Shown: piece after piece, positions 37,083-50,586 of the stretch
Position numbering within the stretch: position 1 is the first letter of the stretch
Layout: each line of letters begins with the position of its first letter
Source of the DNA: Cryobacterium melibiosiphilum
GTDB taxonomy: Bacteria; Actinomycetota; Actinomycetes; Actinomycetales; Microbacteriaceae
Assembly: GCF_003602235.1 (NCBI RefSeq)
Contig: NZ_QZVS01000090.1
Location: 62,001-126,000, forward strand
Direction: 5' to 3'
Length of the DNA stretch: 64,000 nucleotides
Made by a program: the position numbers and the translations under genes
The notes under the pieces: generated by a model
The model's database searches: none
Seen by the model: only the letters and a program-made list of their open reading frames with translations
Told to the model about the DNA's origin: nothing

Positions 37083-37144
37083 TCGCGAGTGAGCAGTTTA
37101 TGCACTTCCCGCGCTCGGGAAGTGCATAAACCGCTCACTCGCGA
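37083..37144. repeat. 62-nt palindromic element, copy A
   Basis: A 62-nt inverted repeat with 29-nt arms and a CGCT loop. The outer part is TCGCGAGTGAGCAG and the inner part ATGCACTTCCCG. There is one mismatch in the stem. Between the FAH-family gene (+) and the permease gene (-). Compared with copies B and C it has paired substitutions on both arms. Confidence 0.95.
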
Positions 37145-41102: not shown

Positions 41103-41887
41103 GCCCCTCCGCGAGCGATCTCACCCAGCGGCTGCGTGGCCGCATCGCCGTGATCACCGGCGGTGCCGGCGGAATCGGGCTCGCGACCGCGCGCCGGTTC
41201 GCGGCCGAAGGCGCCACCGTGGTGATCGGCGACGTCGACGAGACGGCCGGGCTGCGCGCCGCCGACCAGGTCAACGGGTTGTTCGTAAAGGTCGACGTGA
41301 CCAGTCAGGACGAGGTCGACGCCCTGTTCGACACCACCTACCTGCTCTACGGAGCGGTGGACGTGGCGTTCAACAATGCCGGCATCTCCCCCACCGACGA
41401 CGCCTCGATCGAGTCGACGGAGCTGCCGGCCTGGCAACGCGTGCAGGACGTCAATCTCACCTCGGTGTACCTCTGCTCCCGGGCGGCGCTGCGCTACATG
41501 ACCCGGCAGGGTCGCGGATCGATCATCAACACCGCGAGTTTCGTGGCCGTGATGGGGTCAGCCACGAGCCAGATCTCCTACACGGCATCCAAGGGTGGAG
41601 TGCTCGCCCTCAGTCGCGAGCTCGGTGTGCAGTTCGCGCGCCGGGGCATCCGGGTGAATGCCCTCTGCCCGGGACCGGTGAATACGCCGCTGCTGCAGGA
41701 GTTGTTCGCGAAGGACCCCCAGGCGGCCGCCCGCCGCCTGGTGCACGTGCCGATGGGCCGCTTCGCCGAGCCAGAGGAGGTCGCCGCCGCCGTCGCATTC
41801 CTCGCAAGCGATGACAGCTCCTTCATCACGGCCAGCACCTTCTTGGTCGACGGCGGCATCAGTTCCGCGTACACCACCCCGTTCTAG
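41099..41887 (+). CDS. Short-chain dehydrogenase/reductase
   Basis: A 262-residue classical SDR. TGGAGGIGLATARRF binds NAD(P), VDVAFNNAGISP follows, catalytic Ser is in INTASFVAVMG and catalytic Tyr-x-x-x-Lys is YTASKGG. It is the third gene of the gamma-glutamyl operon and may oxidise an alcohol intermediate such as gamma-glutamylethanolamide, which is inference. AGGAG precedes the ATG at 41099. Confidence 0.88.
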   Translation: MSPSASDLTQRLRGRIAVITGGAGGIGLATARRFAAEGATVVIGDVDETAGLRAADQVNGLFVKVDVTSQDEVDALFDTTYLLYGAVDVAFNNAGISPTDDASIESTELPAWQRVQDVNLTSVYLCSRAALRYMTRQGRGSIINTASFVAVMGSATSQISYTASKGGVLALSRELGVQFARRGIRVNALCPGPVNTPLLQELFAKDPQAAARRLVHVPMGRFAEPEEVAAAVAFLASDDSSFITASTFLVDGGISSAYTTPF

Positions 41888-41902: not shown

Positions 41903-41964
41903 TCGCGAGTGAGCAATAAATGCACTTCCCGTGCCCGGGAAGTGCATTTATTGCTCACTCGCGA
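41903..41964. repeat. 62-nt palindromic element, copy B (upstream of nuclease gene)
   Basis: A perfect 62-nt palindrome with 29-nt arms and a TGCC loop. Outer sequence TCGCGAGTGAGCAATAAA, inner ATGCACTTCCCG. It lies 15 bases after the SDR stop and 67 bases before the nuclease gene start. Identical to copy C except for the loop and one outer base. Confidence 0.97.
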
Positions 41965-42031
41965 AGTGGAGGCTCAGGTTGGGCTGTGGAGAACCGTCGT
42001 CGAACCGCCGCGCGGGGGCACTGTGGGTGGC

Positions 42032-42952
42032 ATGCCTCGACTCGTTCCGCTCCCCGACGACTTTCGTTCGCGACCGTTCTCGACGCGGGAAGCGCGTGCA
42101 CGCGGGGTTTCCCTCGGGCGGCTGCGCAGCGCCGACCTGCTCAAGCCCTTTCCGGCCGTTCGAGAGGTTCGGACACCGACGCCCTCGATCGATACCGCCT
42201 GCGCGAGCTACGGCGAGCGGATGCCGCCAAGCCAATCGTTCAGCCACGCCACGGCCGCACGGTTGCACGGCCTGCCGCTGCCGCGGCGGGTGCAGGCCGC
42301 GGGCGTGATCGAGGTGAGTGTGGAGCTACCGGGCCAGTGTCCGCGGGTCGTGGGGGTTCGCGGGCATCGGGTCACGGCGGGCAGCGTCAGAACGGTGCTG
42401 GTGCGGGGGTTCCGGGTGGCCGCGCCGGTGGACACGTGGTGCCAGCTCGCATCCGTTCTTTCGCTCGACGAATTGATCGTCGTCGGTGACGCACTCGTCC
42501 GGCGCCAGAGCCCGCCCGCCACGCTGCCAGAATTGCGAGCAGCCGTCGCGGACTTCGCCGGGCATCGCGGGGCGAAAAAACTGCGCGAGGCCCTGATCTG
42601 GGTGCGCGCCGGGGTGGATTCACCTCGGGAGACCGAGCTGCGCCTGCTGCTCGTGCGCGCAGGGCTGCCCGAACCCGAAATCAACGGCATCATCCGCAAC
42701 CGGCTCGGCGTCAAGATCGCGACCGGAGACATCGTGTACCGGCGCTACAAAGTACTCGTGGAATATGACGGCGGCCAGCACCGCACCGACGAGGAGCAAT
42801 ATCACTGGGACGTCGACCGTCTCGATGCGATCATGGCCGAGGGGTGGCGGGTGATCCGCATCAACAAGTCCCACCTGCGCACACGCAACCGCGCCGTGTT
42901 CAAGGTCGAGAAAGCGCTCACGTCGGCGGGCTGGGTTCATGGCCGCGAGTGA
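42032..42952 (+). CDS. Vsr/DUF559-like nuclease domain protein framed by palindromes
   Basis: A 306-residue protein. The N-terminal 60 residues (LPDDFRSRPFSTREARARGV and SLGRLRSADLLKPF) look like the helix-turn-helix start seen in AbiEi-type proteins. Residues 195-295 carry a PD-(D/E)XK-like core: Glu200/Glu202 in PRETELRLLL, Asp233 in TGDIVYRRY, Glu244 and Asp246 in VLVEYDGGQHR and the ending strand GWRVIRINKSHL. This is the Vsr/DUF559 group of small nucleases. ATG 42032 is the first start with family-like sequence. The stop codon lies inside palindrome C. The physiological target is unknown. Confidence 0.8.
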   Translation: MPRLVPLPDDFRSRPFSTREARARGVSLGRLRSADLLKPFPAVREVRTPTPSIDTACASYGERMPPSQSFSHATAARLHGLPLPRRVQAAGVIEVSVELPGQCPRVVGVRGHRVTAGSVRTVLVRGFRVAAPVDTWCQLASVLSLDELIVVGDALVRRQSPPATLPELRAAVADFAGHRGAKKLREALIWVRAGVDSPRETELRLLLVRAGLPEPEINGIIRNRLGVKIATGDIVYRRYKVLVEYDGGQHRTDEEQYHWDVDRLDAIMAEGWRVIRINKSHLRTRNRAVFKVEKALTSAGWVHGRE

Positions 42953-43004
42953 GCAATAAATGCACTTCCCGAGCCCGGGAAGTGCATTTATTGCTCACTC
43001 GCGA
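42943..43004. repeat. 62-nt palindromic element, copy C (overlaps nuclease stop)
   Basis: A 62-nt palindrome with arms identical to copy B apart from an unpaired outermost base, and an AGCC loop. The nuclease gene stop codon (42950-42952) uses the TGA of GAGTGAGCAA within the left arm. It is between the nuclease gene (+) and the permease gene (-). Confidence 0.95.
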
Positions 43005-43008
43005 GAAA

Positions 43009-44538
43009 CTAGCCCGCGAGGAGCAGTTCGATCGGGCCGCGCACGAAGAAGAACACGAAGCCGAGGGCGACGACCCAGAGCAGCGGGCTGACCTCGCGGG
43101 CCTTGCCCGAGAAGCTGCGCACGAGAACCCAGGCGATGAAGCCGGCGCCGATGCCGTTGGCGATCGAGTAGGTCAGCGGCATCACGATGATGGTCAGGAA
43201 CACCGGCAGCACGATCGAGAACTCGCTGAAGTCGATGTGCCGAATCTGCGACACCATGAGCGCACCGACGATGACGAGCGCGGCGGCGGCGACCTCGAGC
43301 GGCACGATCATGGTCAGCGGCGTGAAGAACATCGCGGCGATGAACAGCAGGCCGGTCACGACGTTCGCGAATCCGGTGCGCGCTCCTTCACCGATGCCGG
43401 CGCCCGATTCGATGAAGACGGTGTTCGACGAAGCGGATGCCGCGCCACCGGCGACCGCGCCGATCCCCTCCACGATGAGGGCGCTCTTCAGGCGCGGGAA
43501 ATGGCCGTTCTTGTTGGCCAGGCCAGCCTCGGTGGCCAGGCCCGTCATGGTGCCCATGGCGTCGAAGAAGTTGGTGAAGACGAGCGTGAAGACGAGCATC
43601 ACGCCGGCGAGCAGGCCGATGCGGTCGAAGGCGCCGAAGCTGACCTGGCCGAGCAGGCTGAGGTCGGGCACCGCGACGATCGACGACGGCAGCACGGGGG
43701 CGTTGAGGTTCCAGCCGGCCGGGTTGGTGCCGAGCGAGGGGCCGACCTTGAAGATGGCCTCGAGGATCACGGCGATGACGGTCGTGGTGACGATGCCGAT
43801 CAAGAGCGCGGCCTTGACCTTACGGGCCAGCAGCACGCCGGTGATGATCAGGCCGAGCACGAAGACGGCCGTCGGCAGGGTCGCGACCGAGCCGGCATCG
43901 CCAAGCTGCACGGGCGGCGAGGCCGCGCCGCTGGCCCGCACGAATCCGGAGTCGACGAGGCCGATGAAGGCGATGAACAGGCCGATGCCGACGGTGATGG
44001 CAATTTTCAGTTGATGCGGGATGGCGTTGAAGATGAGTTCCCGCATGCCGGTCGAGGCCAGCAGCACGATGATGAGGCCGTTGATGACGACGAGTCCCAT
44101 GGCCTCCGACCAGGTGACCTGGCCGACGACACTCACCGCGAGGAACGAGTTGATGCCGAGGCCGGCGGCGAACCCGAACGGAAGCCGGGCGATGACGCCG
44201 AACAGGATCGTCATGACCCCGGCGGTCAGGGCGGTCACCGCAGCAACCTGCGCGTTGGGCAGCCAGTTGCCGTTCACGTCGAGGGCAGCCTGGTCGGCGC
44301 TGAAACCGCCGAGGATCAGCGGGTTGAGAATGACGATGTACGCCATCGTGACGAAGGTGACGACGCCGCCGCGGGTTTCCCGGGCCCAGGTCGAGCCCCG
44401 ACGGGTGATCTCGAAGTAGCGATCGACGCGGGCACGCAGGCCGGTGCGAGTGTCGGGCGCGGCATCCGCTGCAGCGGCGGTGGCATCCGGAGCGTCGGCG
44501 GGCAGACCGGTGGTGCTGGTGTTCTCAGAGCGTGAAAT
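43009..44538 (-). CDS. NCS2 nucleobase permease, AzgA type (hypoxanthine/guanine-like)
   Basis: A permease of about 509 residues with 12 to 14 membrane segments. GGVVTFVTMAYIVILNPLIL, GFAAGLGINSFLAVSVVG, TNFFDAMGTMTGLATEAGL and ASASSNTVFIESGAGIGEGA match the AzgA group of purine permeases. The likely start is ATT at 44538 because GGGAGAACACC sits directly before it, in perfect ribosome-site spacing, and the protein then begins SRSENTST. A GTG at 44580 is the nearest canonical start but lacks a ribosome site. Confidence 0.88.
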   Translation of the reverse strand: MSRSENTSTTGLPADAPDATAAAADAAPDTRTGLRARVDRYFEITRRGSTWARETRGGVVTFVTMAYIVILNPLILGGFSADQAALDVNGNWLPNAQVAAVTALTAGVMTILFGVIARLPFGFAAGLGINSFLAVSVVGQVTWSEAMGLVVINGLIIVLLASTGMRELIFNAIPHQLKIAITVGIGLFIAFIGLVDSGFVRASGAASPPVQLGDAGSVATLPTAVFVLGLIITGVLLARKVKAALLIGIVTTTVIAVILEAIFKVGPSLGTNPAGWNLNAPVLPSSIVAVPDLSLLGQVSFGAFDRIGLLAGVMLVFTLVFTNFFDAMGTMTGLATEAGLANKNGHFPRLKSALIVEGIGAVAGGAASASSNTVFIESGAGIGEGARTGFANVVTGLLFIAAMFFTPLTMIVPLEVAAAALVIVGALMVSQIRHIDFSEFSIVLPVFLTIIVMPLTYSIANGIGAGFIAWVLVRSFSGKAREVSPLLWVVALGFVFFFVRGPIELLLAG

Positions 44539-50495: not shown

Positions 50496-50514
50496 GCCGA
50501 AAGCGTATCCCCCG

Positions 50515-50567
50515 AGCGGATCCCCCAGCGGATCCCCCAGCGGATCCCCCAGCGGATCCCCCAGCGG
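50515..50567. repeat. 12-bp tandem repeat between divergent genes
   Basis: The unit AGCGGATCCCCC occurs four times in full from 50515 to 50562, then AGCGG follows. Each unit carries a GGATCC site. It fills most of the 91 bases between the NUDIX gene and the mycoredoxin gene. Confidence 0.97.
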
Positions 50568-50586
50568 CGCAGCCTAAGCTGAGCCC

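Follow-up and report, generated by a model that had tools for sequence, protein, structure and literature searches.

RAYTs are chiefly proteobacterial. The REP/RAYT systems are described, in the accessible text of the sources, as dispersed palindromes with an enzyme gene that lies beside its own palindromes and forms a co-evolving pair with them (PMC8266576), and REPs are given there as 20–40 bp in length (PMC3733652). According to the accessible portions of further papers, AbiEi binds a pair of 23-bp inverted repeats separated by 3 bp and is autoregulatory, with both AbiEi and Rv2827c repressing their own genes via paired inverted repeats (PMC7319586); the homing endonuclease I-Bth0305I is described as forming a dimer on a target that is nearly 60 bp long (PMC3943268); and MTES_1575, around 2,100 residues in length, combines HEPN, helicase, and wHTH domains (PMC3710099). 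A literature search conducted mostly outside subscription journals and bioRxiv revealed, in the texts accessible to it, no published link between palindromes and DUF559 or AbiEi-nuclease proteins.

The locus that we compare with these systems lies in a 64,000-nt stretch of a Cryobacterium genome (hereafter the window). An earlier note on this DNA had described two near-identical 62-nt palindromes around one gene that ends inside the second of them, and both points are borne out by the sequence. Copy B (41903–41964; 29-nt arms) precedes a nuclease gene on the plus strand (42032–42952, ATG to TGA, 306 aa), and copy C (42943/42944–43004; 28-nt arms) holds the TGA of this gene inside its left arm. 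The arms of both copies are fully complementary around a 4-nt loop, and the copies differ from each other only in one loop base (TGCC in B, AGCC in C) and one outermost base. The palindrome-gene-palindrome unit fills the gap that separates an SDR gene (its stop at 41887) from a convergent gene for a xanthine/uracil-type permease (end at 43009, adjoined by copy C), with 15 nt from the SDR stop to the first base of copy B and 67 nt from the end of copy B to the start codon of the nuclease gene. As single-stranded DNA, copy B folds at −40.7 kcal/mol, compared to −9.0 ± 2.3 kcal/mol in 200 shuffles (z −14), and a scan of the window found no T-run terminator at either B or C. Another family member, copy A (37083–37144), has no adjoining nuclease gene. 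Chance origin of the palindromes was rejected on the z-score of the copy B fold and the 42 copies of the family.

The gap beside the permease gene was fully read in five other congeners (L235, L236, L238, L239, and L240), all of which have an ORF in place of the unit. This ORF encodes a GntR/FCD regulator in L235 and looks alike by eye in the other four, and no such ORF is found in the window between 41887 and 43009. Among eleven congener loci at the permease site, a hairpin with a score of at least 12 lies beside the permease gene only in G067, where it is a different palindrome, accompanied by debris with a half arm ending CTGCTCACTCGCG. The G067 permease gene is also the most similar one (95% over 285 nt), and the genes upstream differ. 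Elsewhere in the window, an inverted repeat (51080–51117/51208–51245) resembles another palindrome family of G067 (L245:19192–19263), and a tandem repeat with the 12-nt unit CCCCCAGCGGAT occupies 50510–50569.

The earlier note had called the gene product a Vsr/DUF559-like nuclease, which stands for the C-terminal domain and fails for the first two thirds of the protein, which are AbiEi-like. The AlphaFold2 model (pLDDT 96.0, pTM 0.91) suggests an AbiEi antitoxin-like part (codons 3–192; 42038–42607, plus strand) made of a putative winged-helix DNA-binding domain and a second domain, followed by a nuclease domain of the Vsr/DUF559/EDxHD type (codons 195–301; 42614–42934, plus strand), so that the window protein models as an AbiEi-like part joined to a Vsr/DUF559/I-Bth0305I-type nuclease. 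In structure comparisons, residues 3–192 match AbiEi of S. agalactiae (6y8q; Z 12.1, rmsd 5.6 over 177 residues) and Rv2827c (1zel; Z 9.1), and residues 195–301 match I-Bth0305I (3r3p; Z 12.8, rmsd 2.5 over 96 residues), NGO0050 (3hrl; Z 11.7), and Vsr (1cw0; Z 10.3). Since residues 51–192 also match nucleotidyltransferase-like chains such as MenT1 (Z 8.7–9.0), the AbiEi assignment there is less exclusive than the nuclease one. In a Foldseek search with the whole model, two chains reached E ≤ 0.001, each from the Toxoplasma mitoribosome, and 3r3p ranked third at 0.012. Pfam assigns only DUF559 and MTES_1575 to the window protein (PF04480 at 25.1 bits, cut-off 20.6), and among 74 family sequences PF18741 matches 69 and PF04480 matches 56 (E ≤ 0.01), while PF13338 matches one relative. 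The putative active-site residues E200, D233, H250, and D260 are invariant in 74 aligned sequences (with L209 and L211 left out); paralogue L045 has another residue at the H250 position, and in an alignment with 3r3p the histidine of the window protein does not fall on a 3r3p histidine. The nuclease genes are under purifying selection, with dN/dS values of 0.07–0.28 in 13 hand-picked pairs.

Six members of the nuclease family were found in the window genome, and all six adjoin a palindrome, each of a different sequence. Palindromes lie on both sides of the window gene, L026, L028, and L045; the truncated gene L044 is flanked by a palindrome on one side and by copies of its arms on the opposite side, and L043 has one upstream only, in several copies. 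In our reading, each nuclease keeps its own palindrome, so that one genome has several independent pairs. Two side observations concern related genes: in L044 (2785–3540), the truncated paralogue (G000:C46:58747–59223) reads into palindrome arms and looks like a decaying unit, and in L051, a weak match (E 0.3), an AbiEi/DUF559-like gene (1212–2514) with a weak PF04480 match sits between two copies of a further, distinct TTCGACGG palindrome. The notion that every DUF559 gene has palindromes was rejected, given that the other DUF559 genes of this genome, L046 and L050, have no hairpin with a score of at least 13 within 1.5 kb on each side.

Outside this genome, the family profile matches in all 57 Cryobacterium genomes searched (that of the window included) and, at E ≤ 1e-10, in 188 of 246 genomes sampled from the class. 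For a survey of hairpins (score ≥13, at most 400 nt from the gene), loci were picked without looking at palindromes: the best match from each of 29 congeners, another 40 of the listed matches, the 80 best among 121 named loci, and two class sets, one of 11 loci (the window's own family) and one of 57 (other families; 17 returned, 40 chosen for spread). In this order and before merging 13 duplicate pairs, hairpins stood on any side of 24/29, 25/40, 57/80, 8/11, and 48/57 genes and on both sides of 9/29, 8/40, 18/80, 2/11, and 27/57. The 204 distinct loci had a hairpin on any side in 153 cases, on both sides in 63 (17/69 congener, 18/68 named, 1/10 class own-family, and 27/57 class other-family loci), upstream in 112, and downstream in 104, while 51 had none at this score within 400 nt; 14 of the 204 carried hairpins with a score of at least 20 on both sides. 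In comparison, 119 control genes of 250–500 aa, all of them from Cryobacterium (400 kb of seven congeners), had hairpins on any side in 25 cases, on both sides in none, upstream in 8, and downstream in 17 (Fisher p 4e-15 for both sides and 1e-21 for any side). The named and class sets were compared with the outer flanks of the same loci, and after deduplication hairpins with a score of at least 13 were 25-fold (named), 36-fold (class), and 11-fold (congeners) rarer in outer flanks. Median hairpin length was 61 nt over distinct loci. The earlier note's view of a nuclease gene set between palindromes of its own class, in a RAYT/REP-like layout with an unrelated enzyme, therefore holds in the paralogues and across the class, and thus more widely than its author thought. 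That the gene belongs to phages or plasmids was rejected, with matches at E ≤ 1e-10 in 1 of 50,697 phage records and 4 of 72,556 plasmid records.

Plainly observed are flanking palindromes, of a different sequence for each paralogue, and, in the families in which copies were counted, dispersed copies of the same sequence. We regard a real cognate association between enzyme and palindrome as nearly certain and consider it highly probable that the protein recognises its palindrome, whereas the further prediction that its nuclease activity maintains or spreads the repeat has only slightly better than even odds. Overall, we favor (at a probability of roughly 0.65) a cognate pair of enzyme and repeat that would work in the manner of REP/RAYT with an unrelated enzyme, with binding, cutting, and copying as its inferred steps. 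A fuller version is offered tentatively, at just under even odds: an actinobacterial REP/RAYT counterpart of separate origin, in which members of an AbiEi-Vsr-type family would bind, cut, and propagate private palindromes of around 60 bp that serve as their homing sites. Mechanistically, two subunits might bind the two arms of the palindrome via their AbiEi-like parts, as AbiEi does on paired inverted repeats, and a dimer on a palindrome of around 60 bp would be the natural reading. The nuclease may then cut in or next to its palindrome, and repair of the cut from other copies would keep the palindrome copies alike. Through such repair, a solo palindrome could also be converted into a palindrome-gene-palindrome unit, with one palindrome on each side of the gene, and in the long run a dispersed palindrome family would be maintained or spread while enzyme-palindrome pairs would mostly be inherited in place.

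The AbiEi likeness also suggests an operator-only explanation, which we consider rather unlikely. According to this rival, the protein represses its own gene via the upstream palindrome, the copies elsewhere in the genome make up a regulon or are operators in decay, and the nuclease has another target, e.g., in foreign DNA. It fits the autorepression by AbiEi and Rv2827c cited above, the PADLOC AbiEi models, which match four of the five own paralogues (though not the window protein), and the location of hairpin centres, which lie mostly 50–150 nt before the start codon. However, hairpins are about as frequent downstream as upstream (104 vs. 112 of 204 loci; centres mostly 0–100 nt after the stop), and they match the upstream ones: among the 63 distinct loci with both hairpins within 300 nt, the upstream and downstream arms of one locus agree at a median of 22 of 26 positions, compared to 11 between loci, and 78% of same-locus pairs reach the 99th percentile of between-locus pairs. 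Arm similarity correlates with protein identity (Mantel r 0.48, 0/999, duplicates included), which common descent alone could explain, and windowed partial correlations along the protein, between −0.08 and 0.08, singled out no part of it that tracks the palindrome.

The number of dispersed copies, about 40, also speaks against an operator alone. A search of the window genome with its palindrome gave at least 80 matches when both strands are counted, from the 40 candidates scored out of 55, and 42 copies were read in the fetched stretches of this genome, a count that takes in one copy with a truncated right arm and two with identical flanks. At E ≤ 1e-3, the palindrome had no match in 59 other relatives (36 of them congeners), a set without G067, where 320 kb contained two diverged copies (L257) and two sites with outer arms only (L245 and L258). 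Among 40 copies, 39 of them distinct, the arms hardly vary outside positions 13–17, and this conservation runs through the inner arms, which likewise argues against the operator. The ATAAA variant common to B and C is found in 5 of the 42 copies. Arm covariation was compared with shuffles of these 40 copies, which are related to each other: 44 cells had changed on both sides vs. 17.9 in shuffles (0/500 as high), and two further measures were not above shuffles (5 vs. 4.7 pairs changed on both sides and 17 vs. 15.3 further pair types). Directly outside the arms, three pyrimidines occur in 82–89% of 80 flanks, taken from the 40 copies that remain without the truncated L036 copy and L042, the flanks of which are those of L041. 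Beside these results we note a palindrome in G067 (L257, 3256–3335) with an inner tandem of CGCTTCCCGG; from this tandem of CGCTTCCCGG, palindromes may grow at their centre. At one intergenic site shared between species (L230 2365–2395, L231 2342–2415, and L227 2342–2402), the outer arms are kept and the inner stem varies as one block from species to species. The cognate pair that we favor would be compatible with an additional role of the upstream palindrome as operator.

Repeat abundance was compared with nuclease presence for two other palindromes. F1, met in random stretches of G022 and sought in 57 genomes, is dispersed in G022, which also has its nuclease, and has a match at E ≤ 1e-3 in 14 of the 57. 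The six genomes with the most first-look candidates (G022 91, G002 56, G060 42, G070 37, G006 30, and G030 28) are exactly those with an orthologue of nuclease L103 of at least 77% identity; the next nuclease is 64% identical. Their lead is narrow, given that G073, which keeps a nuclease remnant, follows with 27 candidates, and first-look candidates are a loose measure in that G025 has 24 of them and zero F1 matches. Counted as matches, which are lower bounds because 16 candidates were scored per genome, F1 reaches at least 32 in G022, G060, G002, and G030, at least 31 in G006, and at least 30 in both G070 (with the orthologue) and G073 (with the remnant only), followed by at least 23 in G079, 19 in G023, 14 in G003, 12 in G010, and 6 in G069. 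The odds of the F1 ranking are 3e-8 across 57 genomes and 3e-4 among the 14, assuming independent genomes, which these are not. For F2, matched in 20 of the 57 genomes, the leading counts go with nuclease identity in part: G034 (at least 32 matches; 100% identity), G017 (26; 86%), G028 (22; 84%), G014 (19; 73%), and G007 (10; 65%) stand beside G035 with 20 matches and no nuclease at E ≤ 1e-40, and the others have at most 9. Nucleases are present in G063 (69%), G078 (68%), and G018 (63%), yet these genomes have only 4, 2, and 0 F2 matches. From these counts and identities and from the orphan palindromes, we conclude that repeat abundance tracks the nuclease in a clear but imperfect manner, for F1 and, in part, for F2. 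The independence of palindromes and gene that the earlier note had named as counter-evidence was mostly not found, since a close orthologue marks the six F1-richest genomes, but orphans exist in G035 (F2) and in G073, G079, G023, and G003, which have F1 copies without a close nuclease.

At the locus upstream of an aldo/keto reductase gene, occupied, decayed, solo-palindrome, and empty states are found in different species, which is a further point against a mere operator. In G022 the gene lies there between two palindromes, and the alignment of five further genomes extends through the gene. G073 keeps one palindrome plus a remnant of the start of the gene, which leads into the right arm of another palindrome. 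A single palindrome, imperfect in each case, is present in G079, G003, and G023, and in G069 no palindrome was recognised. The direction of change is clear only for G073, where it is decay. The window genome's own paralogue L028 occupies this locus too, with a diverged palindrome, and the aligned F1 sites showed no target-site duplication. When 69 congener and 5 own loci were sorted by flanks that they share on one or both sides, they formed groups of 25, 12, 12, 7, 5, 4, 2, and 2 loci along with five singletons. The nuclease genes are thus mostly syntenic, which implies that gene movement is rare. The window gene is a singleton, and its twelve nearest relatives (56–63% identity) are all in the largest group, which adjoins an apparent purL gene, encoding AIRS domains. 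Flanks of this purL-downstream site had no match in the fetched stretches of the window genome. Its place away from the site of these relatives indicates either movement or loss of a paralogue elsewhere. The idea of a small mobile unit thus survives in part: the window copy lies off its nearest relatives' site and another locus shows solo and empty states, but most congener genes stay in place.

The same observations bear on the possibility that the palindromes are MITE-like repeats moved by another enzyme, with the nuclease genes as passengers between two copies. Palindromes that outlive the nuclease or occur without it in some genomes are in line with this, as is the fact that no insertion step of the nuclease was seen, but one gene family lies between unrelated palindromes in many actinobacterial families and F1 abundance goes with the nuclease, so that we find this rival quite improbable. 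Weakest, and scarcely credible, is the proposal that the palindromes are general bidirectional terminators or RNA hairpins that adjoin nuclease genes by chance: control genes often have a downstream hairpin (17/119) and 13 of 40 window-family copies lie between convergent ORFs (by a rough ORF caller), but nuclease genes have hairpins upstream as well as downstream, with both sides in 0/119 controls, the window palindromes lack a T-run, and every paralogue has its own palindrome sequence.

The pairing of a nuclease with its cognate palindrome speaks for a so far unrecognised type of genome repeat that comes with an enzyme of its own. If this is true, it would assign an enzyme to dispersed intergenic palindromes of Actinobacteria, give a likely role to DUF559/AbiEi-like proteins of unknown function, and mean that a REP/RAYT way of life emerged a second time, built on a hydrolytic nuclease. 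It would also provide many natural pairs of an enzyme and a site of around 60 bp in which recognition, homing, and the maintenance of palindromes can be studied, and the reason why bacterial genomes retain repeated palindromes would become testable with one protein and one DNA site.

Among known systems, REP/RAYT is matched by the window family and by F1 in G022 in that an enzyme gene adjoins cognate palindromes of which further copies are dispersed over its genome. Membership among the RAYTs was rejected, given that there is no Y1/HUH (IS200/IS605-like) transposase, that Pfam finds only DUF559/MTES_1575, and that the modeled fold is AbiEi-like plus Vsr-type; the enzyme is thus AbiEi-like and Vsr/DUF559-type instead of an HUH/Y1 transposase, and the palindromes measure around 60 nt, compared to the 20–40 bp given for REPs in the accessible text of PMC3733652. 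The EDxHD homing endonuclease I-Bth0305I resembles the window protein in the predicted fold of the nuclease domain and, as far as the accessible text of PMC3943268 goes, in a long dimer-bound target of nearly 60 bp, but the window gene is free-standing and intergenic (between SDR and permease genes) rather than inside an intron or target gene, and it has an AbiEi-like part and many dispersed sites. With AbiEi and Rv2827c of type IV toxin-antitoxin systems it would share the modeled fold of residues 3–192, along with a paired inverted repeat upstream, whereas here a nuclease domain is fused, the repeats are also downstream and dispersed, and no gene for an AbiEii nucleotidyltransferase toxin is an immediate neighbour at the window locus, which is flanked by the SDR and convergent permease genes. 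The C-terminal domain is shared with the DUF559/MTES_1575 REases of the Vsr superfamily, as seen from the PF18741 and PF04480 matches, but MTES_1575 is a multi-domain protein of around 2,100 residues for which the accessible text of PMC3710099 mentions no palindromes. Because it would work like REP/RAYT without belonging to it, we view this kind of system as new as a category, while noting that it follows REP/RAYT logic.
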